NCBI GenBank assembly: GCA_026400395.1
Contig: JAPLPD010000173.1
Location: forward strand, 1 to 40,015
Reading direction: 5' to 3'
Origin: Alphaproteobacteria bacterium
Lineage (GTDB): Bacteria > Pseudomonadota > Alphaproteobacteria > Rhizobiales > Xanthobacteraceae
DNA: 40,015 nucleotides
Shown here: piece by piece, positions 25,979 to 38,772 of the stretch
Layout: every line of letters starts with the position of its first letter
Position numbering within the stretch: the first letter of the stretch is position 1
Position numbers and translations under genes: made by a program
The notes under the pieces: model-generated
Databases searched by the model: none
The model's input: the letters and a program-made list of their open reading frames with translations, nothing else
What the model was told of the DNA's origin: nothing

Positions 25979-26059
25979 CTATTCGGCCGGGGTGGCCGCG
26001 GCGCGAATCTGCGATTTCGATTCGTTCAGGCCGCTGCGGGCCTGCTCCTGCTGAAGCCA
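25979..26059 (-). pseudogene. Out-of-frame remnant of the gamma subunit C-terminus
   Basis: Read in the frame shifted from the gamma gene, this stretch gives WLQQEQARSGLNESK and ends TPAE followed by TAG. It resembles the final residues of intact gamma subunits after the WAKEHH..W motif. ATGG occurs at both sides of the presumed junction (ATGGATGG at 26057-26064), consistent with a slip deletion between short repeats. Translation would need a frameshift to reach it. Confidence 0.5.
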
Positions 26060-26961
26060 TCCATGCCGATCGAGCCGATGTAGATATGGGCGATCATCGC
26101 CGCGATGAAAAGCACCGCCACGGTGGCGTGGATCACCTGGGCAAGCTGCATCCCGGCAATGTCGGTGCCGTAGAACGGGAACATCAGGAAGTATCCGGTG
26201 GTCGCGACGCAGCCGCCGCCGAGCACAACGATCCAGTAGATCACCTTCTGGCCGGCGTTGAACTTGTAGGCAGGCGGATGATCGTTGCCGACGATGCCAC
26301 CGCCACGCTTGATCCAAGCGATATCGACTCCGTTCGGGATATTGTTGGCGACCCACATCAGCAGCATCAGCACGACGCCGAGCGTGAACGGGAAGCTCAG
26401 GTAATTGTGGGCGTACTTGCCCCACTGCGACCAGGCGGCGAAGGCATCGGCGCCGAACAGCGGCAGCAGAAGCGATTTGCCAAAGCTGATGTTGAGGCCG
26501 GTGATGGCGAGAACGATGAAGCAGCCCGCGGTCATCCAGTGAACGCCGCGTTCGAACGCATTGAACCGCACGATTGAGCGGCCCGAGCGGCCGTTCTCCA
26601 GCTTCACCATGCCGCGCATCAAATAGAAGACAACGAGAACAGCGAGCATGCCAAGGATGGCAATGGCCGCGAGCCAGTGCAGCGCGCCCTCGTGGAACGC
26701 CCGCCACGCCTGACCGGCCGGCTGAATGAGGTTGCCGGACTTCTGATCGGGAATGCTGACCCGGCCGCTGATGGAGTCGCCGCCGCCGGGGCCACTTTTC
26801 AGGGCGTTGAGCAGCTGGTCTTCCTTGACCGCACTTGCCGTCGGATTCACCGAATTATCCGAATTTCGCTGCTGCGCGCCGGCCGGGGCGGCCACACCCA
26901 CGATCAGCGCCAATGCCAGCGCCGCGACAATAAAGCGAGCGTTTGCAAACAGTCCCGCCAT
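26026..26961 (-). CDS. fdhC: Formate dehydrogenase gamma subunit (cytochrome b), C-terminal tail lost
   Basis: Membrane anchor carrying two b hemes, taking electrons from the beta subunit and reducing quinone. At 311 residues it has a cleavable signal peptide (1-29), a periplasmic region and four transmembrane helices. Candidate heme ligands are present: His141 (GVHWMTAG), His278 (VIHATVAV) and His292 (AHIYIG). Normally the family continues after IGM with EGAFDAMG...VNWAKEHH..W. Here the frame reads DGFSRSRPAAA and stops at 26026. The expected end of the tail reappears in another frame (25979-26059), which indicates an internal deletion of roughly 70-80 bases with frameshift. Heme sites survive, but the tail that packs near the quinone/beta interface does not. 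It is 93 bases downstream of the beta gene. Confidence 0.88.
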   Translation of the reverse strand: MAGLFANARFIVAALALALIVGVAAPAGAQQRNSDNSVNPTASAVKEDQLLNALKSGPGGGDSISGRVSIPDQKSGNLIQPAGQAWRAFHEGALHWLAAIAILGMLAVLVVFYLMRGMVKLENGRSGRSIVRFNAFERGVHWMTAGCFIVLAITGLNISFGKSLLLPLFGADAFAAWSQWGKYAHNYLSFPFTLGVVLMLLMWVANNIPNGVDIAWIKRGGGIVGNDHPPAYKFNAGQKVIYWIVVLGGGCVATTGYFLMFPFYGTDIAGMQLAQVIHATVAVLFIAAMIAHIYIGSIGMDGFSRSRPAAA

Positions 26962-27054: not shown

Positions 27055-27651
27055 TCAGGTTGCGATGGATTCCTTGTAGGCCGTCTTCCAGCCCCACGCG
27101 CCGGAGCCGTAACCGCGGCGCACCACCCGCTCCTTGTAGATCTGCGCGATGATATCGCCGTCGCCGGCCAGCAGCGACTTGGTCGAACACATCTCCGCGC
27201 AGAGCGGCAGCTTGCCCTCGGCCAGCCGGTTGCTGCCGTACTTCTCGTACTCTTCCTTGGAGTGATCCGCCTCCGGACCGCCGGCGCAGAAGGTGCACTT
27301 GTCCATCTTACCGCGCGAACCGAAGTTGCCGACCTTCGGATATTGCGGCGCGCCGAACGGGCATGCGTAGAAGCAGTAGCCGCAGCCGATGCAGAGATCC
27401 TTGGAGTGCAGGACCACCGCGTCCGCGGTCGTATAGAAGCAGTTTACCGGGCAGACCGCCGCGCAGGGCGCGTCGGTGCAATGCATGCAGGCCATCGAAA
27501 CCGAGCGTTCGCCGGGCTTGCCGTCATTGATGGTGACGACACGGCGGCGGTTGATGCCCCACGGAACTTCGTGTTCGTTCTTGCAGGCGGTGACGCAAGC
27601 GTTGCACTCGATGCAACGGTCGGCATCGCAGAGGAATTTCATACGGGCCAT
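27055..27651 (-). CDS. fdhB: Formate dehydrogenase beta subunit (iron-sulfur)
   Basis: A 198-residue electron-transfer subunit of the Fdh3-type enzyme. It carries four [4Fe-4S] sites: CIECNACVTACKNE, CMHCTDAPCAAVCPVNC, CIGCGYCFYACPFGAP, and CTFC paired with CAEMC towards the C-terminus. It has no TAT signal of its own and is expected to travel through the TAT pore as a passenger of the alpha subunit. The start ATG is 12 bases after the alpha stop, so the two are co-translated from one message. Unlike FdnH/FdoH it lacks a C-terminal membrane helix, which marks the shorter Fdh3 class. Confidence 0.95.
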   Translation of the reverse strand: MARMKFLCDADRCIECNACVTACKNEHEVPWGINRRRVVTINDGKPGERSVSMACMHCTDAPCAAVCPVNCFYTTADAVVLHSKDLCIGCGYCFYACPFGAPQYPKVGNFGSRGKMDKCTFCAGGPEADHSKEEYEKYGSNRLAEGKLPLCAEMCSTKSLLAGDGDIIAQIYKERVVRRGYGSGAWGWKTAYKESIAT

Positions 27652-27663
27652 GTTCGTTGCTCC

Positions 27664-30615
27664 TTATGCCGCTCTGACCTGACAGAGCGTCGCCTTGGGT
27701 TCTTGCATGCCGGTGACCGGGTCGAAGCCGTAGGTGGTGAGCGTGTTGACGCTCTCACCCAGCACGATTGGATCGGCTCCCTTCGGATAGTTGCCGCGCT
27801 GATCGACGCCCTGGAACCAGCCGGCGAAGTGGAACGGGCACCAGGTGACGCCCTTACCGACGCGCTCGGTGACCAGCGCCTTCATGCGGGCCTTGGACTG
27901 GTGTTCGGCGCCGGTGACCCACACCCACTGACCGTCCTTGATGCCCCGCTCGGACGCGTCACCGGGATTGATCTCGATGAACATGTCCTGCTGAAGCTCG
28001 GCGAGCCACTTGTTGGATCGCGTCTCCTCGCCGCCGCCTTCGTATTCGACAAGACGGCCGGAGGTGAGGATGAGCGGGAACTGCTTGGCAACCCCCTTCT
28101 CGGCCGCCGCCTTCTGCACGTCGAAACCGACGTTGGGCATGCGGAATTCACGCCGGTTGGGAAGCGTTGGATATTTGGCGACGAGTTCGGGCCGCGGCGT
28201 ATAGATCGGCTCACGATGCGTCGGGATGGCATCGGGCAACCCGAAGGCATTCGCCCTCGCCTTGCCGTTGCCGTACGGAACGCAACCGTGTTCGATCGCC
28301 ACGCGCTGGATGCCGCCTGACAGGTCGATCGCCCACGACACCGCGTCGGGCGTCGTCGGGTTGATCTTGTTGATCACCGCCATTTCGGCTTCGGTCAGAT
28401 CCTTGTCCCAGCCGAGCTTCTTCAGCACCCCAAGAGTAAACTCGGGATAGCCGTCCTTGATCTCGGAGTCCTTGGAGTAATAACCGTTGCCGAGCAGGCT
28501 CACCTTGCGCTTAGAGCCATCGGCCAGGGTTTCTTCGCGCTCGACGCCGAAGCGTGCGCGAAACGTGCCTCCGCCCTCTTTGACCGAAAGGTTGGTGTTG
28601 TAGAGCAGCGGTGTGCCCGGATGCTTGTATTCCGGGGTGCCCCAGCACGGCCAGGGCAATCCGTAGTAGTCACCCGTGTTCGGCCCGGACGCGGCCTTCT
28701 GGGTGAGCATGTCGAAGTCTTTCTGGTTCGCCATGTGCGTCTTAAGCCGCTCCGGCGACTGGCCGCAGTAGCCGGTCGACCAGCCGCCGCGATTACTTTC
28801 GCGGAGGATGTCCTCCGGGGACGGCACGTTGTTCTCGACCTTGATGTTCTTGAACATCGTGTCGGCAAAACCGAGCTTCTTGGCGAGGAGATACATTACC
28901 TCGTTGTCGTCCTTGGACTCGAAGATCGGCTTGACGATCTGCTCGCCCCACTGGATCGCGCGGTTGGAGGCCGTGCGCGAACCCGCGGTCTCGTAGCTGG
29001 TGGCGATCGGCAAGAGGTACGTATTGTCCTTGCGTGCCGGCGCAAGCGCCGCCCAGGTCGTCGGGTGCGGATCGGCGACCACGAGCAATTCGAGCTTCTC
29101 GACACCCTCCTGCGCCTTGGGCATGCGGGTCACGGTGTTGCCGCCGTGGCCGAACACCATCATCGCCTTGATGTTGTCCTTCTGGGACACATCCTTCTGC
29201 TCCGACAGCGTGGCGTCGAACCAACGGGTCGATGGAATGCCCGGCACCTGCATGGTGTTGGATTCCTTGCCGTCCGCGGCGGTGATCTTGTCGAACCTGC
29301 TGACGAACCAGTCGTAAGGCACCTCCCAGACGCGCGACCAGTGCCGCCACGCCGGCTCCGCGAGCCCGTAGTAGAGCGGCAGCGTCGCGATATCGAGGCC
29401 GAGATCGGTCGCGCCCTGCACGTTGGTATGACCGCGGAAAATATTGGCGCCGGTGCCCGGTGCTCCGACGTTGCCGGTGGCGAGCAGCAGGATGCAGAGC
29501 GCGCGCACATTGGCGGTGCCGACGGTGTGTTGGGTGACGCCCATGCACCAGATCAGCGTCGAGGGCTTCTCGGTCGCGAACATCTTGGCAACGCGCTCAA
29601 GCTGCGCTCCAGGTACGCCAGTGACGCGCTCGACCTCCTCGGGCGTCCACTTCTCGACCTCCTTGCGGATGTCGTCCATTCCGTAAACGCGCTGCTCGAT
29701 GAACTGCTTGTCTTCCCCGCCGTTCTTGAAGATGTGCCAGAGCATTCCGTAGATCACCGGAATGTCGGTGCCGGAACGCAGCCGCACATATTCCGTCGCG
29801 TGCGCCGCGGTGCGGGTCATACGCGGATCGATCACGATCATGTTCGCCCGCTGCGACTGCTTGCCTTCAAGCACATGCTGCAGCGACACCGGATGCGCTT
29901 CAGCCGGATTGCCGCCCATGATCATGATGGTCTTGGAGTTGCGGATGTCCGTGTAGCTGTTGGTCATCGCGCCGTAGCCCCAGGTGTTGGCTACGCCGGC
30001 AACCGTCGTCGAGTGGCAGATGCGGGCCTGATGGTCCGAGTTGTTGGTGCCCCAGAACGCCGCGAACTTACGATTGAGATAGGCGCCTTCGTTGGTGAAC
30101 TTGGCGGAGCCGAGCCAATAGACGGAATCGGCGCCGGACTTGGCGCGGATCGCCATCATCTTGTCGCCGATCTCATTGATCGCCACGTCCCACGAGATGC
30201 GGGTCCACTGGCCGTTTACCAGCTTCATCGGATACTTCAGCCGGCGGTCGCCGTGCACGAGTTCGCGCGTCGCTGCGCCCTTGGCGCAATGGGAGCCGCG
30301 ATTGATCGGGCTATCCCAGCCCGGCTCCTGGCCGACCCAGACGCCGTTCGAAACTTCGGCGATCAGCGTGCAGCCGACCGAACAATGCGTGCAGATATTC
30401 TTGCGGATCGTGGCGCCGGCGCCGGGCGCGGAACCGGCCGCGTCAGCCTTTCGCACGCTGGTCAGCGGCAAGGCGCCGACGGCGGCGAGACCACCCGCGG
30501 CAAGACCCGAGCGGCGCAGAAAGGTGCGGCGGTCGATACTTCCGGCGGATTGCGTGCCGAGCGCAGCGGCCAGCATGCCACGGCGCGCTTGACGTTCTGT
30601 TCTCTTGATGAGCAC
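27664..30615 (-). CDS. fdhA: Formate dehydrogenase alpha subunit, TAT-exported, Cys-type
   Basis: A 983-residue molybdenum/tungsten bis-pterin enzyme oxidising formate to CO2 in the periplasm. A twin-arginine signal is present (DRRTFLRRSGLAAGG, Arg29-Arg30). One [4Fe-4S] cluster is bound by Cys75, Cys78, Cys82 and Cys110. The metal ligand is Cys200 in RICHST, followed by His201, so this is the cysteine and not the selenocysteine form. The remaining conserved regions (GSNTTEAH-like GGNPAEAHPV, the MGVTQHT block and GRLVEYEGGGEETRSN near the C-terminus) are complete. It is preceded by the small TAT peptide gene (10 bases) and followed by fdhB (12 bases). Confidence 0.96.
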   Translation of the reverse strand: MLIKRTERQARRGMLAAALGTQSAGSIDRRTFLRRSGLAAGGLAAVGALPLTSVRKADAAGSAPGAGATIRKNICTHCSVGCTLIAEVSNGVWVGQEPGWDSPINRGSHCAKGAATRELVHGDRRLKYPMKLVNGQWTRISWDVAINEIGDKMMAIRAKSGADSVYWLGSAKFTNEGAYLNRKFAAFWGTNNSDHQARICHSTTVAGVANTWGYGAMTNSYTDIRNSKTIMIMGGNPAEAHPVSLQHVLEGKQSQRANMIVIDPRMTRTAAHATEYVRLRSGTDIPVIYGMLWHIFKNGGEDKQFIEQRVYGMDDIRKEVEKWTPEEVERVTGVPGAQLERVAKMFATEKPSTLIWCMGVTQHTVGTANVRALCILLLATGNVGAPGTGANIFRGHTNVQGATDLGLDIATLPLYYGLAEPAWRHWSRVWEVPYDWFVSRFDKITAADGKESNTMQVPGIPSTRWFDATLSEQKDVSQKDNIKAMMVFGHGGNTVTRMPKAQEGVEKLELLVVADPHPTTWAALAPARKDNTYLLPIATSYETAGSRTASNRAIQWGEQIVKPIFESKDDNEVMYLLAKKLGFADTMFKNIKVENNVPSPEDILRESNRGGWSTGYCGQSPERLKTHMANQKDFDMLTQKAASGPNTGDYYGLPWPCWGTPEYKHPGTPLLYNTNLSVKEGGGTFRARFGVEREETLADGSKRKVSLLGNGYYSKDSEIKDGYPEFTLGVLKKLGWDKDLTEAEMAVINKINPTTPDAVSWAIDLSGGIQRVAIEHGCVPYGNGKARANAFGLPDAIPTHREPIYTPRPELVAKYPTLPNRREFRMPNVGFDVQKAAAEKGVAKQFPLILTSGRLVEYEGGGEETRSNKWLAELQQDMFIEINPGDASERGIKDGQWVWVTGAEHQSKARMKALVTERVGKGVTWCPFHFAGWFQGVDQRGNYPKGADPIVLGESVNTLTTYGFDPVTGMQEPKATLCQVRAA

Positions 30616-30861: not shown

Positions 30862-31635
30862 TCAAGCCGGCAGCGCAAAGGCTTCAGTCTCGATATCGAT
30901 GAACAGACGTCCGAGCGTGCCGACGTGGCGATAGAATCGCGCCGATTCGGCCCGCTCGAGGTCGGCGAAGAAGCGCCCGATCCACGGCGCCATATGGCTT
31001 TCGAACACCTTCTGGTCGCTGCCGGCCGGCGCTTCGAACTGGCGCGACGCAAGCCCCGCCATGATCTCGCACAGGATCGCGGCGTGATCCTCGGGTTCAG
31101 CCTGCCCCTCGGCGCGCTCGATGCCGATCGCCCGCAGATCGTCGCGCAACCGCGCCAGCGGACGCTCGTGCAGAAAGCCCGTGAGATAGAACGAACCATA
31201 CGGCAGCAGTTCGCCGCGCCCGAGCCCGATGAACAAGTCGAAGAACTCGCGCTCGATCTGTTCCAGCGAAGCATGGCCAGCGGCTTCGGCGAGCGCCGCG
31301 TGGGCCACGCCGAGCGCGGTCGGATCGCCGCGCAACCTGGAAAGCCGCTCTAGGAAAGCCGCATCGGGAGCGCGCGCGAGCAGCACAGCCAGCAGCGCGT
31401 ACTCCTGCGCACGCGCGATGTCAGTTTCATCGGCGGCGGCTGAATCGATGGCTGCGAACAGGTCGGGGCGCAGGACGGCGCGGTTGATCCCGGTCGCGCT
31501 CTCCACCGAAACCACACGCTCGGCCGGGACACGATCCCAGCTCGAAATCGAGGGCTGCGAAATGCCGATCCGGCGCGCGAGTTCGCTGACGCTGCCAGCG
31601 GCGCGGATCGCTTCCTGCAAGCCAGTATCCCGCAT
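30862..31635 (-). CDS. HTH (YdaS/Cro-like) - TorD chaperone fusion, putative regulator of fdh
   Basis: A 257-residue two-part protein. Residues 1-60 form a Cro/YdaS-type helix-turn-helix (SVSELARRIGISQPSISSW, then the RVPAERVVSVESATG block and RAVLRPDLF). After a short linker, residues 75-255 are a TorD/DmsD-type chaperone (EYALLAVLLARAP; FFDLFIGLGRGELLPYGSFY; LTGFLHERPLARL; the EPEDHAAIL motif at 180-188). TorD-family chaperones bind the TAT signal and hold the molybdoenzyme until its cofactor is inserted. The N-terminal HTH suggests the same protein binds DNA. It is the first gene of the unit, 32 bases before the TAT peptide gene; an inverted repeat overlaps its own start codon. The ribosome site is weak. 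Confidence 0.9.
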   Translation of the reverse strand: MRDTGLQEAIRAAGSVSELARRIGISQPSISSWDRVPAERVVSVESATGINRAVLRPDLFAAIDSAAADETDIARAQEYALLAVLLARAPDAAFLERLSRLRGDPTALGVAHAALAEAAGHASLEQIEREFFDLFIGLGRGELLPYGSFYLTGFLHERPLARLRDDLRAIGIERAEGQAEPEDHAAILCEIMAGLASRQFEAPAGSDQKVFESHMAPWIGRFFADLERAESARFYRHVGTLGRLFIDIETEAFALPA

Positions 31636-31739
31636 TCGAATTGCTCAAGATTTCGGCAGGTAGATTCCGATAAGAACAATTCGAAACACTAGTTGGCCTG
31701 CGGAACAGTAGCAATACACCTATAGACTGAAGCTATAGG
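31635..31739. promoter_or_regulatory. Candidate operator/promoter region upstream of HTH-TorD gene
   Basis: Between the DUF3306 stop and the HTH-TorD start. A 9-bp inverted repeat has arms TTCGAATTG (31635-31643, overlapping the start codon) and CAATTCGAA (31677-31685), 33 bases apart; each arm contains the palindrome TTCGAA. A second palindrome, CCTATAG and CTATAGG with a 7-base loop, is at 31719-31739. The first fits binding of a dimeric HTH protein at two half-operators near its own start, i.e. autoregulation. The second could be another operator or the 3' hairpin of the DUF operon. Confidence 0.45.
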
Positions 31740-31744
31740 GCCCG

Positions 31745-32440
31745 TTACTGGGGCAACGCCCGCCCATGCCTTCGTTCAGCCGGCGGAACACTATCCTCGC
31801 TCTTTATTTCTTGTTGCATCGCAACATTTTCTTTTTCGCGATGCACAATAACGGCGTCTCCGACACCGGATGGCGCCCGCATGTCGGACACCGGCTGATC
31901 GAGCGTTTTCGTGTCGAATGACGCTGTTTGCGGTTCCTTTGACACCACCACCCCTGGACCGGGCTCGCCTTCGGCACCGACCGCCGCGCCGGGCTGCTCA
32001 ACCAAGGGGGGAAGCTGGCTCTGAAACACCTCCGCGACCAACCGGCGAACATCGTCCGTCGCTTCGAGCGGGCCAAAGCCGGGCAGCCCTTTTCCGGTCG
32101 CGAAGTCCCACTGGTTCTCCGCGACCTCGATGAAGTCGCGAATGGCCGGATCAGTGGTCCACGCGCGGCGAAGCGCCGCACGGGTCAATTCGAGCGGGAC
32201 GCCCTTCTGAAGAAACGACCGGATGTCGGTGCCCAAGGTGATCGATTCGATCGGCGGAAGGGTCGAGAGATCGACCTCCGGCTCCTTGTGACCCTCGGCT
32301 GTCGCCTCAACCGCGGATGCCGCGGATTCGATTTCCCGAACGGGCTCAACACCCGATGCGTCTTTCGGAGCCTCGGCGTCGCGCGTTGCTTCCTGCTTGA
32401 GGCGCGACCAGCGCGACAGGAATTTGTCAGACTCGGTCAT
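31745..32440 (-). CDS. DUF3306 protein, formate dehydrogenase accessory
   Basis: A 231-residue protein starting MTESDKFLSRWSRLKQEA, the family N-terminus. The centre LSTLPPIESITLGTDIRSFL and the tail block LTRAALRRAWTTDPAIRDF, then NQWDFA, are the conserved region (about 60-130). The last 100 residues are low-complexity and charged. There are no catalytic motifs and no membrane segment. It overlaps the DUF3305 gene by four bases; the pair is usually found together next to formate dehydrogenases. It is the last gene of the five-gene overlapping set. Function is unknown; a role in maturation or regulation of the enzyme is inferred from location only. Confidence 0.85.
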   Translation of the reverse strand: MTESDKFLSRWSRLKQEATRDAEAPKDASGVEPVREIESAASAVEATAEGHKEPEVDLSTLPPIESITLGTDIRSFLQKGVPLELTRAALRRAWTTDPAIRDFIEVAENQWDFATGKGLPGFGPLEATDDVRRLVAEVFQSQLPPLVEQPGAAVGAEGEPGPGVVVSKEPQTASFDTKTLDQPVSDMRAPSGVGDAVIVHREKENVAMQQEIKSEDSVPPAERRHGRALPQ

Positions 32441-32943
32441 CCCTCATCCTCGGCCGGCCGCGTGCGGCGGCCCAGCGCGTCCAGGTTGGCGCGATCCCGC
32501 TTGCGCTTGAAAAACGGTTGTTCGACATGGTGCTCGGCAACGAAGACATCAACCGTGCCCCGTATCGCCTCCGGCATCGGCACCTGCTCGACGATGTCGT
32601 TGCCAGCCGACGTGTATCCCTCGCCCTCCGAACCATCGGCGGTGACACACACCACGGCGAACGGCGGCTCCGCGCCGGTCGGCCGCAACACAACCCAAAG
32701 CTTCGCCTCGCCGGTGGCAAGGTTGTCCCGGTAGTTCGAGGTCTCGCTTGAGTGCAGCATCACATCCGCGCGGCCGGCATAGAACGTCGCGCCGTCCGCG
32801 GTCTCGCTCAGCATCGTCCACGGGCTCGCGTCTGGCTCGCCTGGAATCGCGGCGAGAGGCCGCCAGGTAAAGTCGATCCACGGCGAATCCGCCTTGCGCC
32901 GCTCAACCACCACGCCGACGGGAATGCGGATACTCGCGCTCAT
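32437..32943 (-). CDS. DUF3305 protein, formate dehydrogenase accessory
   Basis: A 168-residue protein beginning MSASIRIPVGVVVERRKADS, followed by the family block PWIDFTWRPLAAIPG. It has a beta-rich core (YRDNLATGEAKLWVVLRP) and the C-terminal VEQPFFKRKRDRAN, where a phenylalanine and basic patch is conserved. It overlaps both neighbours by four bases (32437-32440 and 32940-32943). No known activity; I infer an accessory role because it occurs with DUF3306 in the same kind of locus. Confidence 0.85.
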   Translation of the reverse strand: MSASIRIPVGVVVERRKADSPWIDFTWRPLAAIPGEPDASPWTMLSETADGATFYAGRADVMLHSSETSNYRDNLATGEAKLWVVLRPTGAEPPFAVVCVTADGSEGEGYTSAGNDIVEQVPMPEAIRGTVDVFVAEHHVEQPFFKRKRDRANLDALGRRTRPAEDEG

Positions 32944-33938
32944 GCCTTCATGGCCTCGATCGGCAGGCCGGTCAGCAGGTTCTGAGGTTTGAACCGCACC
33001 ACCTTATCCTCCCCGACAGCAAGGATCAGATAAACCGGCTCTCCCCGCAGCGCATCCATCACGCCGGACGAGTCATGGAATGTCAGCCGATAAAGCCCGA
33101 CGATTCGATTGCGAAGCGCATCGCTCAATTCCTCGCCGTTCCAAAGCGCATCGCCGATCTTGGTTCCCTCCGCATCGAGGCCGGCGTACCAGGTAAAATT
33201 CGCGTTCGTGGCCTCGGTGAACGGTTCCACATCGACATCGACCGAAAGCAAATGCCTGACCCAGCGTGCCATCGCCTGCGCCAGCGCGATATGACCGCGC
33301 TGACCGCCGCTGAGATCGAGGGCGACATGGAACTGATCGCTGTGCTCGAAATAGTGTTCGGCATTGTCGGCGTTCATAACGTCGATATCGGCGGCGGCCG
33401 GTATCCCCAGCATTGAAACCAGGGGCGACACCGGCCCGGGGCTCTTGCCGGAAATCGTTTCTTCATCCGCAACGATCAGCGCGCCGTCGTGCAAGGTCAT
33501 GCGCTGCGGGCGGAAAAAAATCTCCGCCGCACGCAGCACATAAGGATCCTCGCAATCATCGAGCGCGTTGCGAAGGATGACGTGAACGAGCTGGTTGAGA
33601 AACAGATGCGGCACCTTGAGGCCACGCCGCACGATATCGAGGTAGGCGGCTTCAAGCGTACGGTGGCGCAGCAGATGGTCTCGAAACGCCAGCAGCACCT
33701 GCCAGTTCTCGCGCGCGTCCGGATCGGCGATGCGGGCAATCTCCTCCGGCGGCACGGGCTTGCGAGGGTCGGCGAGCAGCGCCGCGTGCAGGTCACGCTC
33801 GGTCGCGCACGCTTCCGGAGGCGGCACAAGCTCGGGCCGCGCCAGATAGACCTTGAGGAAATCGTCGGTCAGAAGCAGGCCGCCGCCCTGGTCACGGTCG
33901 AGCAGATGGTGCCCGCAAGAAAGCCAAAAGTCCTTCAT
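32940..33938 (-). CDS. DUF6352 family protein, formate dehydrogenase accessory
   Basis: A 332-residue cytoplasmic protein starting MKDFWLSCGHHLLDRDQGGG and ending LLTGLPIEAMKA. The order DFWLSCGHHLLDRD, LVPPPEACATERDLH and LFLNQLVHVILRNALDDCEDPY (about residues 5-150) fits the family assigned DUF6352 in my memory; the name should be checked. No catalytic residues were recognised, although the opening CGHH (Cys-Gly-His-His) could bind metal. ATG 33938 is fixed by the ATGA overlap with the upstream gene, whereas the open frame extends much further upstream (to 34136) in what would be out-of-family sequence. Confidence 0.75.
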   Translation of the reverse strand: MKDFWLSCGHHLLDRDQGGGLLLTDDFLKVYLARPELVPPPEACATERDLHAALLADPRKPVPPEEIARIADPDARENWQVLLAFRDHLLRHRTLEAAYLDIVRRGLKVPHLFLNQLVHVILRNALDDCEDPYVLRAAEIFFRPQRMTLHDGALIVADEETISGKSPGPVSPLVSMLGIPAAADIDVMNADNAEHYFEHSDQFHVALDLSGGQRGHIALAQAMARWVRHLLSVDVDVEPFTEATNANFTWYAGLDAEGTKIGDALWNGEELSDALRNRIVGLYRLTFHDSSGVMDALRGEPVYLILAVGEDKVVRFKPQNLLTGLPIEAMKA

Positions 33939-34474
33939 CTGTCGCTCTCCTGCTGGCCCAGGCTCGTCAGATCGATCCGTTCTTCCGGCTCTTCTTCTCC
34001 TTCGACCTCCAGGAATGCAAACGCGCGCAGCGGCTTCGGTCCGGCTTTGCGTTGCAAGCTGCGGAAGGTCTCGCGTATTTCGCCGTTCTCCTCGCTGCGG
34101 TGGACGGCGATCAACGTGTCCGCGGGGTGCGAGCACAAAGAGCTGGCGAACGCCACTTCCGCCTTGGCCGCCAGCTCTGCGTCATCGAAGGTTGGCGCGC
34201 CGAAATTCTCGACCAGCCGATCCGCCAGCGTCCGGACCAGATCGGAATAGTCGCGCTCGCTGGCTTCGACGATCTGCACCAGCGTGGACCATCCCAGCGA
34301 CTGCACGCCGAGAAAGCCGCCACGGAACGCCGCGCGTGCCTTGCCCTGCAATCCGGCGGCATCGTCGTTCAGGAACGCGAACGAGCCCGACACCGCCCAC
34401 TCACCCGGCTCCGCCGCGCGCTCGAACACGAAGGTATCCGACGGATCGAGCCGGATGGTGCGAAGGAGCTTCAA
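33935..34474 (-). CDS. DUF6505 family protein, formate dehydrogenase accessory
   Basis: A 179-residue protein starting MKLLRTIRLDPSDTFVFERA. A beta/alpha core includes FRGGFLGVQSLGWSTLVQIV, the tail has RRSLQRK-type basic residues, and the acidic end is EVEGEEEPEE. I recall this group as DUF6505; certainty about the label is moderate. It overlaps the genes on both sides by four bases, so its product is made in fixed ratio with them. Nothing in the sequence indicates an activity. Confidence 0.7.
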   Translation of the reverse strand: MKLLRTIRLDPSDTFVFERAAEPGEWAVSGSFAFLNDDAAGLQGKARAAFRGGFLGVQSLGWSTLVQIVEASERDYSDLVRTLADRLVENFGAPTFDDAELAAKAEVAFASSLCSHPADTLIAVHRSEENGEIRETFRSLQRKAGPKPLRAFAFLEVEGEEEPEERIDLTSLGQQESDR

Positions 34475-35220
34475 GGCGGCCCTCGCGTTGCCGGATCGAG
34501 CCAGCTCGGCTTGGCCAGCGCCGGCACCAGCGGACAGCGTTCGACCTCGACCTTTCCCATGCGCCGGATCAGCAGATCGCCGTTATCGGCAATGCTGCGG
34601 CTCACCCCCTGCTCCGGCGCCAGTCGCGACAGGTAATCCCGCGACACCGCGCCAAAGCCCCGTTCCCGCCAGGTATCGAAGGCCGTCATCAGATGACGGG
34701 AAAAACTCTCCGCGAGTTGAGCCGCGCCAAAATCCTCAAAGCCCTCCTCCTCCAGCGCCGACGCCAGCGGACGCAACCCCGGATCGCCTTCGGCCAGCGA
34801 CACGGTCCGGATCATGGCGCCGAACACCAGCCATTCCGGTTGTTCATTCTCGAGCCCGCCCGGCCAGGCAAGTTGCCCGCCACCAATCAGACCGCCATCG
34901 ACGTGGATCGCATCGGGCCAGCCGAACGAAATCGGCTTCTCCGGAGGCGCATGAGCCGCCAGTGCATCGGCCAGCGCGCACATGCCGGCGTAGAAGGCGC
35001 GGCGCGCGGTCGAGAGCGGCTCGTCAGGCTCGAGCACCACCGCGAACTCCGACAGATCGAACCGGCCGACGAACACCAGGGTGCCCGCGCCCAGCGCGGC
35101 TGCGTGGGTCCGGGCGTGCACGAACGCATCGCCGACTTCACGCAGCGTCACCAGACGAAAGCCCGGCGGCAGCGAAAGTTCAGTTCCCATCTGCGTTCTG
35201 GAGGCCATTCCGGCTGCCAT
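34471..35220 (-). CDS. Biotin/lipoate protein ligase-fold protein without the catalytic lysine
   Basis: A 249-residue protein of the biotin/lipoate A/B ligase superfamily: TLREVGDAFVHAR, AGTLVFVGRFDLSEFAVVLEPDEPL, ISFGWPDAIHVDGGLIGGGQL. In BirA the segment KWPND..RKLAGIL supplies the catalytic Lys; here it aligns as GWPDA..GGLIGGG, with Leu111 at that position. The GRGRRG nucleotide loop is also absent. It is therefore likely not a conventional ligase, and may bind a lipoyl-like or formate-pathway ligand. The ATG at 35220 has GGGGAA upstream. It is the first gene of the five-gene unit, divergent from the iron-sulfur gene across a 95-base AT-rich region. Confidence 0.8.
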   Translation of the reverse strand: MAAGMASRTQMGTELSLPPGFRLVTLREVGDAFVHARTHAAALGAGTLVFVGRFDLSEFAVVLEPDEPLSTARRAFYAGMCALADALAAHAPPEKPISFGWPDAIHVDGGLIGGGQLAWPGGLENEQPEWLVFGAMIRTVSLAEGDPGLRPLASALEEEGFEDFGAAQLAESFSRHLMTAFDTWRERGFGAVSRDYLSRLAPEQGVSRSIADNGDLLIRRMGKVEVERCPLVPALAKPSWLDPATRGPP

Positions 35221-37353: not shown

Positions 37354-38670
37354 CTACTTCGCCGTCGCCTTCTTGAGAAACTCCATCAACGCCGTGCGAT
37401 CCTCCGCCGAGCCGATCCTCTGCTCCGGCATCTTGGTGCCCGGCGTGTATTCCATCGGCCCCACCTCGAACAGTTTCGATAATGTTTCCGGCGACCAGAC
37501 GATGTCGAGCCGCTTCAACGCATCGGAAAAATTGTAGCCGGCCAGGCTGGCAATTCTGCGCCCGAAAATGCCGTGCAGAGTCGGACCGGCGCGGTTGCCC
37601 TCGTCCGGCGACAGCGTGTGGCAGGCGACGCAGGCGCGGTAGACCTCCGCGCCCCGATCGCCTTGATAGGCGGCCAGCGGGTCGCCGGCGCCGGCCATCG
37701 GCACCATGCCGATGTGATCGCCGCTCAGCGCATCCCAGCGCCGGATCATCCGGTCGGTGCCGCCGGTGAGGAGCGTGCGGTTTTCCGGAAGAAACGCCGC
37801 CGCCCAAACCGGCAGTCCCGGTCCGACCAGTGTGCGTTCGAGCTTGCGCGAAGCCCGTTCGACGATCGCAACCGACCCGCGGATTCCGGCGGCGGCAACG
37901 AGTCTGCCATCGTTGGAAATCGCCACGCTGATCAGCGGCGTCTCGGTCGCGGCCAGTACCCCGCGCGGCTCCCCCGTCGCGGAAAAAAAGTACACCACGC
38001 CATCGGCGCCGCCCGCGACGATCTCTCCATCGCCGGCCACCGACACCGCGTTCAGCGGCGTTGCCAGCGTTACAATGGTGGGCGGCCCGCCGTCGAGCGG
38101 CCAGATCCGGACCTGCGGATCGTGGCTGACGCTGACGACCGATTGTCCGTCCGGCAAAAACGCAACGCCATTGACGTTCTGCTGGTGGCCCTCCAGCACC
38201 TGGGACGCACCGCCGTCGGCCGACCATACTCTGACCGTGCGATCCCAGGAGCCGGTCGCCAGCCGCGTCCCGTCCGGCGAAACCGCGACCGCGGCGATCG
38301 GCGCGGTGTGCCCGGACAACACCTGCTGCGGCTTCGTCTCGCCCGGGCGCCAAATGGCGAGCCTGCCGTCCTCGCCGCCGGTCGCCACCCGGCCGTCCGG
38401 CAGCAGCGCGACGGCATTCACCGCGCTTTCGTGGAACCGCAAGACCTGTTCGGCCGAACCACGCGGGAGCGACCAGAGGATGGCCGACGTGTCGAAACTG
38501 CCGGAGACCGCGCGGCTGCCGTCGGCCGACACCGCCAGCGCCCGCACTGGGCCGCCATGCCCCTGAAGCTGCGCGTGCGCCGGTTGGATGGCGATGACCG
38601 CCAGAGCGAGCCTCGCCAATATCGACTGTTTAATCAATTGCTTACACGAACCACGCTGGTTTTGAGACAT
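37354..38670 (-). CDS. Secreted WD40 beta-propeller fused to cytochrome c
   Basis: A 438-residue protein from ATG 38670 with signal peptide (ARLALAVIAIQPAHA, cut near residue 33). About seven WD40-type repeats run to about residue 325 (recurring SxDGxxxATGSxDxxVRVW patterns). A C-terminal class I cytochrome c domain has the heme site Cys347-x2-Cys350-His351 (CVACHTL) and a methionine ligand in TKMPE near residue 417. The GRRIASLAGYNFSDALK block resembles cytochrome c2 types. It should be periplasmic and soluble, with the propeller as docking surface. Beside the formate genes it could be a partner or regulator of electron flow. The start is uncertain because no clear ribosome site is seen. Confidence 0.85.
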   Translation of the reverse strand: MSQNQRGSCKQLIKQSILARLALAVIAIQPAHAQLQGHGGPVRALAVSADGSRAVSGSFDTSAILWSLPRGSAEQVLRFHESAVNAVALLPDGRVATGGEDGRLAIWRPGETKPQQVLSGHTAPIAAVAVSPDGTRLATGSWDRTVRVWSADGGASQVLEGHQQNVNGVAFLPDGQSVVSVSHDPQVRIWPLDGGPPTIVTLATPLNAVSVAGDGEIVAGGADGVVYFFSATGEPRGVLAATETPLISVAISNDGRLVAAAGIRGSVAIVERASRKLERTLVGPGLPVWAAAFLPENRTLLTGGTDRMIRRWDALSGDHIGMVPMAGAGDPLAAYQGDRGAEVYRACVACHTLSPDEGNRAGPTLHGIFGRRIASLAGYNFSDALKRLDIVWSPETLSKLFEVGPMEYTPGTKMPEQRIGSAEDRTALMEFLKKATAK

Positions 38671-38772
38671 CCCCGAACATACCCGACTGGAGGTGCGGCC
38701 GCTATTTGCCGGCCGGGTGAACCTCAACCGGCCCAAGCGCGTTGTCTCGCAGATCGTTCACAGGAGGAGCCG

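Follow-up and report, generated by a model that had tools for sequence, protein, structure and literature searches.

We identified a TorD-type chaperone gene in a formate dehydrogenase operon that encodes a YdaS/Cro-type helix-turn-helix (HTH) domain in the same open frame, together with a predicted operator for this protein, ATAG-N7-CTAT, just upstream of its own gene. Both are found in a 40,015-nucleotide stretch of DNA from an alphaproteobacterium of the family Xanthobacteraceae (GenBank assembly GCA_026400395.1, contig JAPLPD010000173.1), hereafter the window. Comparison among orthologues strongly supports DNA binding of the predicted protein, HTH-TorD, in cis and autoregulation of the torD-tatS-fdhABC unit. 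Taken as a whole, we propose that HTH-TorD is an autoregulator with the enzyme's maturation chaperone as its other half, and that immature FdhA affects transcription, a reading that we consider reasonably probable.

Table 1 Features of the HTH-TorD gene and its operon in the window (positions count from the first letter of the window)
Feature	Position	Strand	Basis
HTH-TorD fusion gene, 257 aa, ATG start	30862..31635 (stop codon included)	-	ORF call, Pfam, orthologous fusions
YdaS/Cro-type HTH domain, residues 6-60	31456..31620	-	Pfam PF15943, Foldseek
Recognition helix region, residues 27-33 (QPSISSW)	31537..31557	-	model helix 27-31, covariation
TorD/DmsD chaperone domain, residues 73-255, including P181-E182-D183-H184	30871..31419	-	Pfam PF02613, Foldseek, conservation
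Predicted operator ATAGCTTCAGTCTAT, 15-bp palindrome ATAG-N7-CTAT, centre 94 bp before start codon	31722..31736	-	
Putative -35 element TTGCTA	31709..31714	-	by homology to L002, scoring weakly
Putative -10 element TAGTGT, spacer 17	31686..31691	-	scored promoter prediction
DUF3306 gene, precedes HTH-TorD; stop codon 8 bp from predicted operator	31745..32440	-	ORF call, Pfam
tatS, small Tat-signal protein, 67 aa	30626..30829	-	TIGR02811 'formate dehydrogenase region TAT target'
fdhA, alpha subunit of formate dehydrogenase, carrying a Tat signal (DRRTFLRRSG); presumed client	27664..30615	-	
fdhB, FDH3-type beta subunit	27055..27651	-	NF038355 above cut-off
fdhC, gamma subunit	26026..26961	-	TIGR01583

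The initial annotation had read a single open frame as a YdaS/Cro-like HTH joined to a TorD/DmsD-like chaperone, and this is borne out by Pfam, where both domains score above their cut-offs: residues 6-60 match YdaS_toxin (PF15943; E = 1.4e-13, 50.9 bits vs. a cut-off of 30) and residues 105-224 match Nitrate_red_del (PF02613, the TorD/NarJ family; E = 1.5e-30, 106.4 bits vs. a cut-off of 22.2). "YdaS toxin" is only Pfam's name for PF15943, and the HTH-TorD gene sits in a metabolic operon. An AlphaFold2 model built from 28 sequences (the window protein, 16 of the 21 fused loci then available, and 11 unfused loci) reached a mean pLDDT of 83.1 and a pTM of 0.67, with a compact HTH half (helices 4-13, 16-23, 27-31 and 38-48), a poorly defined linker at 62-66, and an all-helical chaperone domain with weak stretches at 138-155. 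Foldseek matched the HTH half to Xfaso 1 Cro (3bd1; TM by target 0.78, 41% identity) and the chaperone half to DmsD (3efp; E = 7.1e-5) and YcdY (9m26; TM by target up to 0.79). The residues P181-E182-D183-H184 correspond to EPxDH, a motif of the TorD/DmsD/NarJ family; across 63 fused proteins P181, E182 and D183 are invariant, and H184 is present in 95%. In one-component transcription regulators, a single chain carries a DNA-binding domain together with another domain that may bind a ligand, and HTH-TorD has this architecture, differing in that its second domain is a Tat proofreading chaperone and its presumed ligand a protein precursor from the same operon.

Read 5' to 3', the operon comprises genes for a biotin/lipoate-ligase-like protein, DUF6505, DUF6352, DUF3305, DUF3306, HTH-TorD, tatS, fdhA, fdhB and fdhC, with a divergent 4Fe-4S protein gene upstream, and this order is common to most fetched loci with enough sequence. 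The operon is of the FDH3 type, scoring 342.6 bits with NF038355 (vs. 240) and 58.4 with TIGR02811 (vs. 48.45). The fusion gene had been described as directly upstream of the formate dehydrogenase; in fact, tatS intervenes before fdhA. A gap of 109 bp separates the DUF3306 gene from the HTH-TorD gene, which leaves room for a promoter of its own. The genes preceding this gap, from the biotin/lipoate-ligase-like gene to DUF3306 (window 31745-35220, minus strand), are conserved, uncharacterised formate dehydrogenase accessory genes.

Of 38 loci fetched from GTDB contigs by protein similarity, 21 carry the two halves in a single open frame, and the same holds for 38 of the order's 397 genomes (a count that includes the window's own genome and G207, whose match came in two pieces; 139 of the 397 have any match), so the fusion is not an accident of frame. 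Outside this order, four genomes of the class also have it (loci L137-L140). Beyond Alphaproteobacteria, no match to both halves was found in 398 genomes of the phylum, with a query that would miss other HTH types. Seven long open frames outside the class were rejected as fusions, being read by eye as a neighbouring ferredoxin-like gene in another frame, as was Falsigemmobacter L033, where stops interrupt the apparent match that begins at residue 2. Many orthologues occupy the same operon position without an HTH. Separately, DUF3306-like and TorD sequence share one open frame in L081 and L083, possibly a further fusion; L081 comes from genome G171, which has two formate dehydrogenase copies, one with the HTH fusion and this one without an HTH.

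The predicted operator is located between the DUF3306 gene and the HTH-TorD gene, inside the interval 31600-31745 that the initial annotation had named, and its consensus before fused genes is YATAG-N7-CTATR. Within 230 bp upstream, a perfect ATAGN7CTAT precedes 54 of 59 fused genes, one further gene (L025, HTH present) has the site with one mismatch, and the remaining four have ATAA-N7-TTAT; shuffled upstream sequences lead to an expectation of 0.05 perfect sites per 59, and a perfect site precedes 0 of 36 unfused genes. Loci added later had the site before 4/4 canonical fusions and 0/9 unfused genes, and named genomes added later had it before 1/1 fusion (a plasmid copy) and 0/2 unfused genes. 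Counting either form within 230 bp upstream, the 121 orthologues divide into 62 with HTH and site, one with the HTH alone, none with the site alone, and 58 with neither. When the upstream region was extended to 500 bp, one of 52 unfused genes (L124) showed a chance-like ATAA-N7-TTAT in AT-rich DNA.

On a tree of the TorD halves (121 rows, made by a quick method with SH-aLRT support only, and leaving out L077-L080, L146, L033, L158, L166 and L083), the HTH changes 6 times and the site 7 times. The HTH and the operator largely share one clade, so their association is phylogenetically confounded, and the independent HTH/site pairs (two on well-supported branches, six on all branches) are too few for significance. 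The suggestion that the chaperone may regulate its own enzyme's genes nevertheless gains by this comparison, with a site in 62 of 63 orthologues with the HTH and 0 of 58 without it, and we take it as the best reading because the HTH is conserved, a matching palindrome is present, and both are gained or lost together. From these patterns, HTH-TorD very probably binds ATAG-N7-CTAT upstream of its own gene, and it very likely controls the torD-tatS-fdhABC unit. The predicted ATAG-N7-CTAT operator in front of HTH-TorD is new here.

We also searched for further targets, and found none other than torD-tatS-fdhABC in the window's own genome, in 11 fused genomes, or in 62 fused loci. The 62 loci (743,063 bases) contain three further sites, of which one (L139) lies in an upstream region that already has the operator. 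In the window's own 5.3-Mb genome, ATAGN7CTAT occurs at 7 places vs. 17 for the reversed control, with no related operon seen near the others, and CATAGN7CTAT in the 11 fused genomes occurs 50 times forward and 56 times reverse vs. 58 and 58 for the reversed control. Given no excess of sites in either comparison, we do not claim a wider regulon. The site was also rejected as a generic YdaS operator, since five other YdaS-type proteins (L077-L080 and L146) have no ATAG site upstream, their best candidates showing 2-3 mismatches. The fold z-score of the leader RNA (-1.58) was not notable. In six loci (L094-L098 and L101), a second palindrome-like element, such as TTGGAATAATTCCAA or CTAGAACAGTTCTAG, lies downstream of the operator and is perhaps a site of another regulator.

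Our analysis also revealed other DNA-binding domains on the same chaperone. Ten genes of another family (f144) and one gene of f179 carry a YdaS domain with the helix KQANVWHW or SQGHVWHW; these lack the ATAG site and have ACAAA-N4-TTTGT upstream (perfect in 9/11, one mismatch in 2/11), a motif that is perfect in 0.1% of shuffles and in 0/116 controls. By eye, the f144 site lies between TTG(-35)- and TA(-10)-like hexamers. A single case, L144, combines a TorD-type chaperone with an Xre-type HTH (HTH_31, HTH_3), and its upstream DNA contains a palindrome on which, from one sequence, we base no claim. Both f144/f179 and L144 fall among unfused proteins on the TorD tree, apart from the canonical fusions, and DNA-binding domains have thus joined the chaperone more than once. 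In L147 and L148 (f138), an IS1595-type transposase zinc ribbon shares an open frame with TorD, but these were not accepted as a firm fusion on account of a promoter-like stretch seen by eye before the TorD part.

Relative to the predicted promoters of 63 genes, the operator centre is at -13 to -17 in 20 cases, at -41 to -43 in 19 cases and at -49 to -53 in a further 10, leaving 14 genes with other positions. A centre at -13 to -17 suggests repression, whereas one at about -43 or -52 is compatible with either sign and resembles activator positions. In the window, the top promoter prediction scores 7.4 and the one chosen by homology, TTGCTA-N17-TAGTGT, scores 7.3; the latter puts the operator near -51. 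Since the site falls inside the -35/-10 spacer in several lineages, we lean toward repression as the sign of regulation, while activation by the window protein is possible given that its site appears ~50 bp upstream of the start point. We did not adopt an activator reading from the helical phasing of -43 and about -52, which is suggestive only and comes from few lineages.

In the mechanism we propose, HTH-TorD, presumably as a dimer, would recognise ATAG-N7-CTAT just before its own gene, while its TorD half, by analogy with the family, would bind the signal peptide and/or the apo form of FdhA. The E. coli TorD monomer is reported to bind signal peptide at about 1 uM and to dimerise with a constant exceeding 50 uM (PMC8428690), and as signal peptide is bound by the monomer, client binding could alter the pairing of the HTH domains. 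We therefore favour, with a modest degree of confidence, the idea, already raised in the initial annotation, that occupancy by immature FdhA alters dimerisation or DNA binding, such that transcription would track how much chaperone is present relative to immature enzyme. Repression by the free dimer would be lifted by immature FdhA, so that more chaperone (and enzyme) is made; repression by the client-bound form, or activation by the free form, would instead give negative feedback on enzyme synthesis. More broadly, and with the case for and against it evenly poised, HTH-TorD may represent a class of regulators in which the sensor is a Tat export chaperone and the signal is the immature enzyme, with at least three origins in Alphaproteobacteria by capture of different HTHs at the same formate dehydrogenase operon, each with an operator of its own, tuning transcription to molybdoenzyme maturation.

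A serious alternative, though the less probable one, is plain Cro-like negative autoregulation, in which the HTH would hold the levels of chaperone and downstream enzyme by concentration and the TorD half would be no sensor of its client. YdaS of prophage CP-933P is reported to bind the promoter region driving its own transcription and to act like Cro (PMC8630535), and such YdaS/Cro prophage regulators, including Xfaso 1 Cro (3bd1), share HTH family and fold with HTH-TorD. The palindromic operators of YdaS overlap its own promoter region, much as the predicted palindrome of HTH-TorD stands upstream of its own gene and overlaps core promoter positions in several lineages, and all of the observed covariation is explicable without ligand sensing. 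HTH-TorD differs from these regulators in having its HTH on a metabolic chaperone in a respiratory operon and in recognising what is predicted to be a different palindrome. Purely concentration-dependent control would leave unexplained why a chaperone, of all proteins, repeatedly gained DNA-binding domains, and the fusion places DNA binding and client binding in one chain, where the two would compete or communicate.

It is very improbable that the HTH simply tethers the chaperone at the fdh genes to catch nascent FdhA, with no transcriptional regulation: a single cis site per locus and the coupling of transcription and translation in bacteria would suit such a role, but the predicted site overlaps or abuts promoter elements in many loci, where transcription should be affected.

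The pairing of helix and operator bears on whether the palindrome could be the site of a different regulator. ATAA/TTAT precedes L069, L104, L108 and L073, and among the 63 fused proteins these four, and no others, have a QPA(I/V)S helix; the remaining 59 have a QPS or QPT helix together with ATAG/CTAT. In an unrestricted scan of HTH residues 1-62 against those operator positions that vary, residue 29 ranked first with a normalised mutual information of 1.0, covarying with positions 4 and 12 of the 15. L187 retains ATAG/CTAT with a QPPVS helix, so residue 29 is not the sole determinant of the operator base. That the palindrome belongs to another regulator, marking a clade in which the HTH is incidental, would fit the phylogenetic confounding described above and its two well-supported independent pairs, but we regard it as extremely improbable: QPA is placed at two separate spots on the TorD tree, so that residue 29 switched together with the site twice, a different helix accompanies the different site ACAAA-N4-TTTGT, and the site is missing from unfused relatives that branch within the fused group.

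The HTH half is also the more constrained part of the protein. Among 63 fused proteins, the mean column entropy is 0.92 for the HTH, 1.29 for TorD and 2.33 for the linker, and residues A9, G14, L19, A20, P28, S31, W33, P37, R40, E45, R52, L55, R56 and D58 are invariant. Pooled pN/pS over 22 pairs, obtained by simple counting with some pairs near saturation, is 0.275 for the HTH vs. 0.424 for the TorD half. By these measures the HTH codons are under purifying selection, and more so than the chaperone half, and the initial annotation, which had made its proposal depend on conservation of the HTH residues in orthologues, holds on this point. The HTH can hardly be a functionless relic, even with 58 of 121 orthologues lacking a canonical HTH, given this excess of constraint, the invariant helix residues P28, S31 and W33, and a conserved matching operator.

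For the chaperone half, the closest studied case is FdhM of Campylobacter jejuni, a TorD homologue reported to be required for formate dehydrogenase activity (PMC4148689). Like HTH-TorD, members of the FdhM/TorDfdh clade (PMC4148689, PMC4464133) are TorD-family chaperones encoded in formate dehydrogenase operons; unlike HTH-TorD, they are described, in the passages of these papers that we drew on, with no mention of a DNA-binding domain. The main text of the bioinformatic survey of the NarJ family (PMC4464133) nowhere contains the terms "helix-turn-helix", "DNA binding" or "fusion", and "helix-turn-helix" was not found in the consulted text of a review (PMC10609526). In agreement with the earlier remark that no characterised system of this type is known, we found no description of an HTH-TorD fusion or regulator in the open-licence literature. 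A possible working analogy is offered by the flagellar export chaperones FliT, FliS and FlgN, which are reported also to affect gene expression, coupling assembly to transcription (PMC8527033). These serve type III flagellar export, whereas HTH-TorD would serve Tat export and itself bears the HTH. How cells match the synthesis of complex molybdenum/iron-sulfur enzymes to the slow loading of their cofactors and to Tat export is still little understood. In this operon, the protein that presumably encounters the immature subunit as its chaperone also appears to occupy the promoter of that subunit's genes. To our knowledge, FliT, FliS and FlgN have no covalent DNA-binding domain.

The 15-bp predicted operator and the covariation between residue 29 and the operator base make the question directly testable. 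Proteins annotated just as "molecular chaperone TorD family protein", as is the plasmid copy of the fusion in Bradyrhizobium sp. 184, may prove to be regulators. Finally, two open frames were noted by eye: L146 (G412), a 588-aa frame joining a YdaS-type HTH to an apparent YjeF_N/NnrE-type protein, that is, a metabolic protein with a phage-like HTH, and, in the window at 37354-38736 (minus strand), an ORF whose single frame appears to combine WD40 repeats with a c-type cytochrome motif (CVACH) after them.
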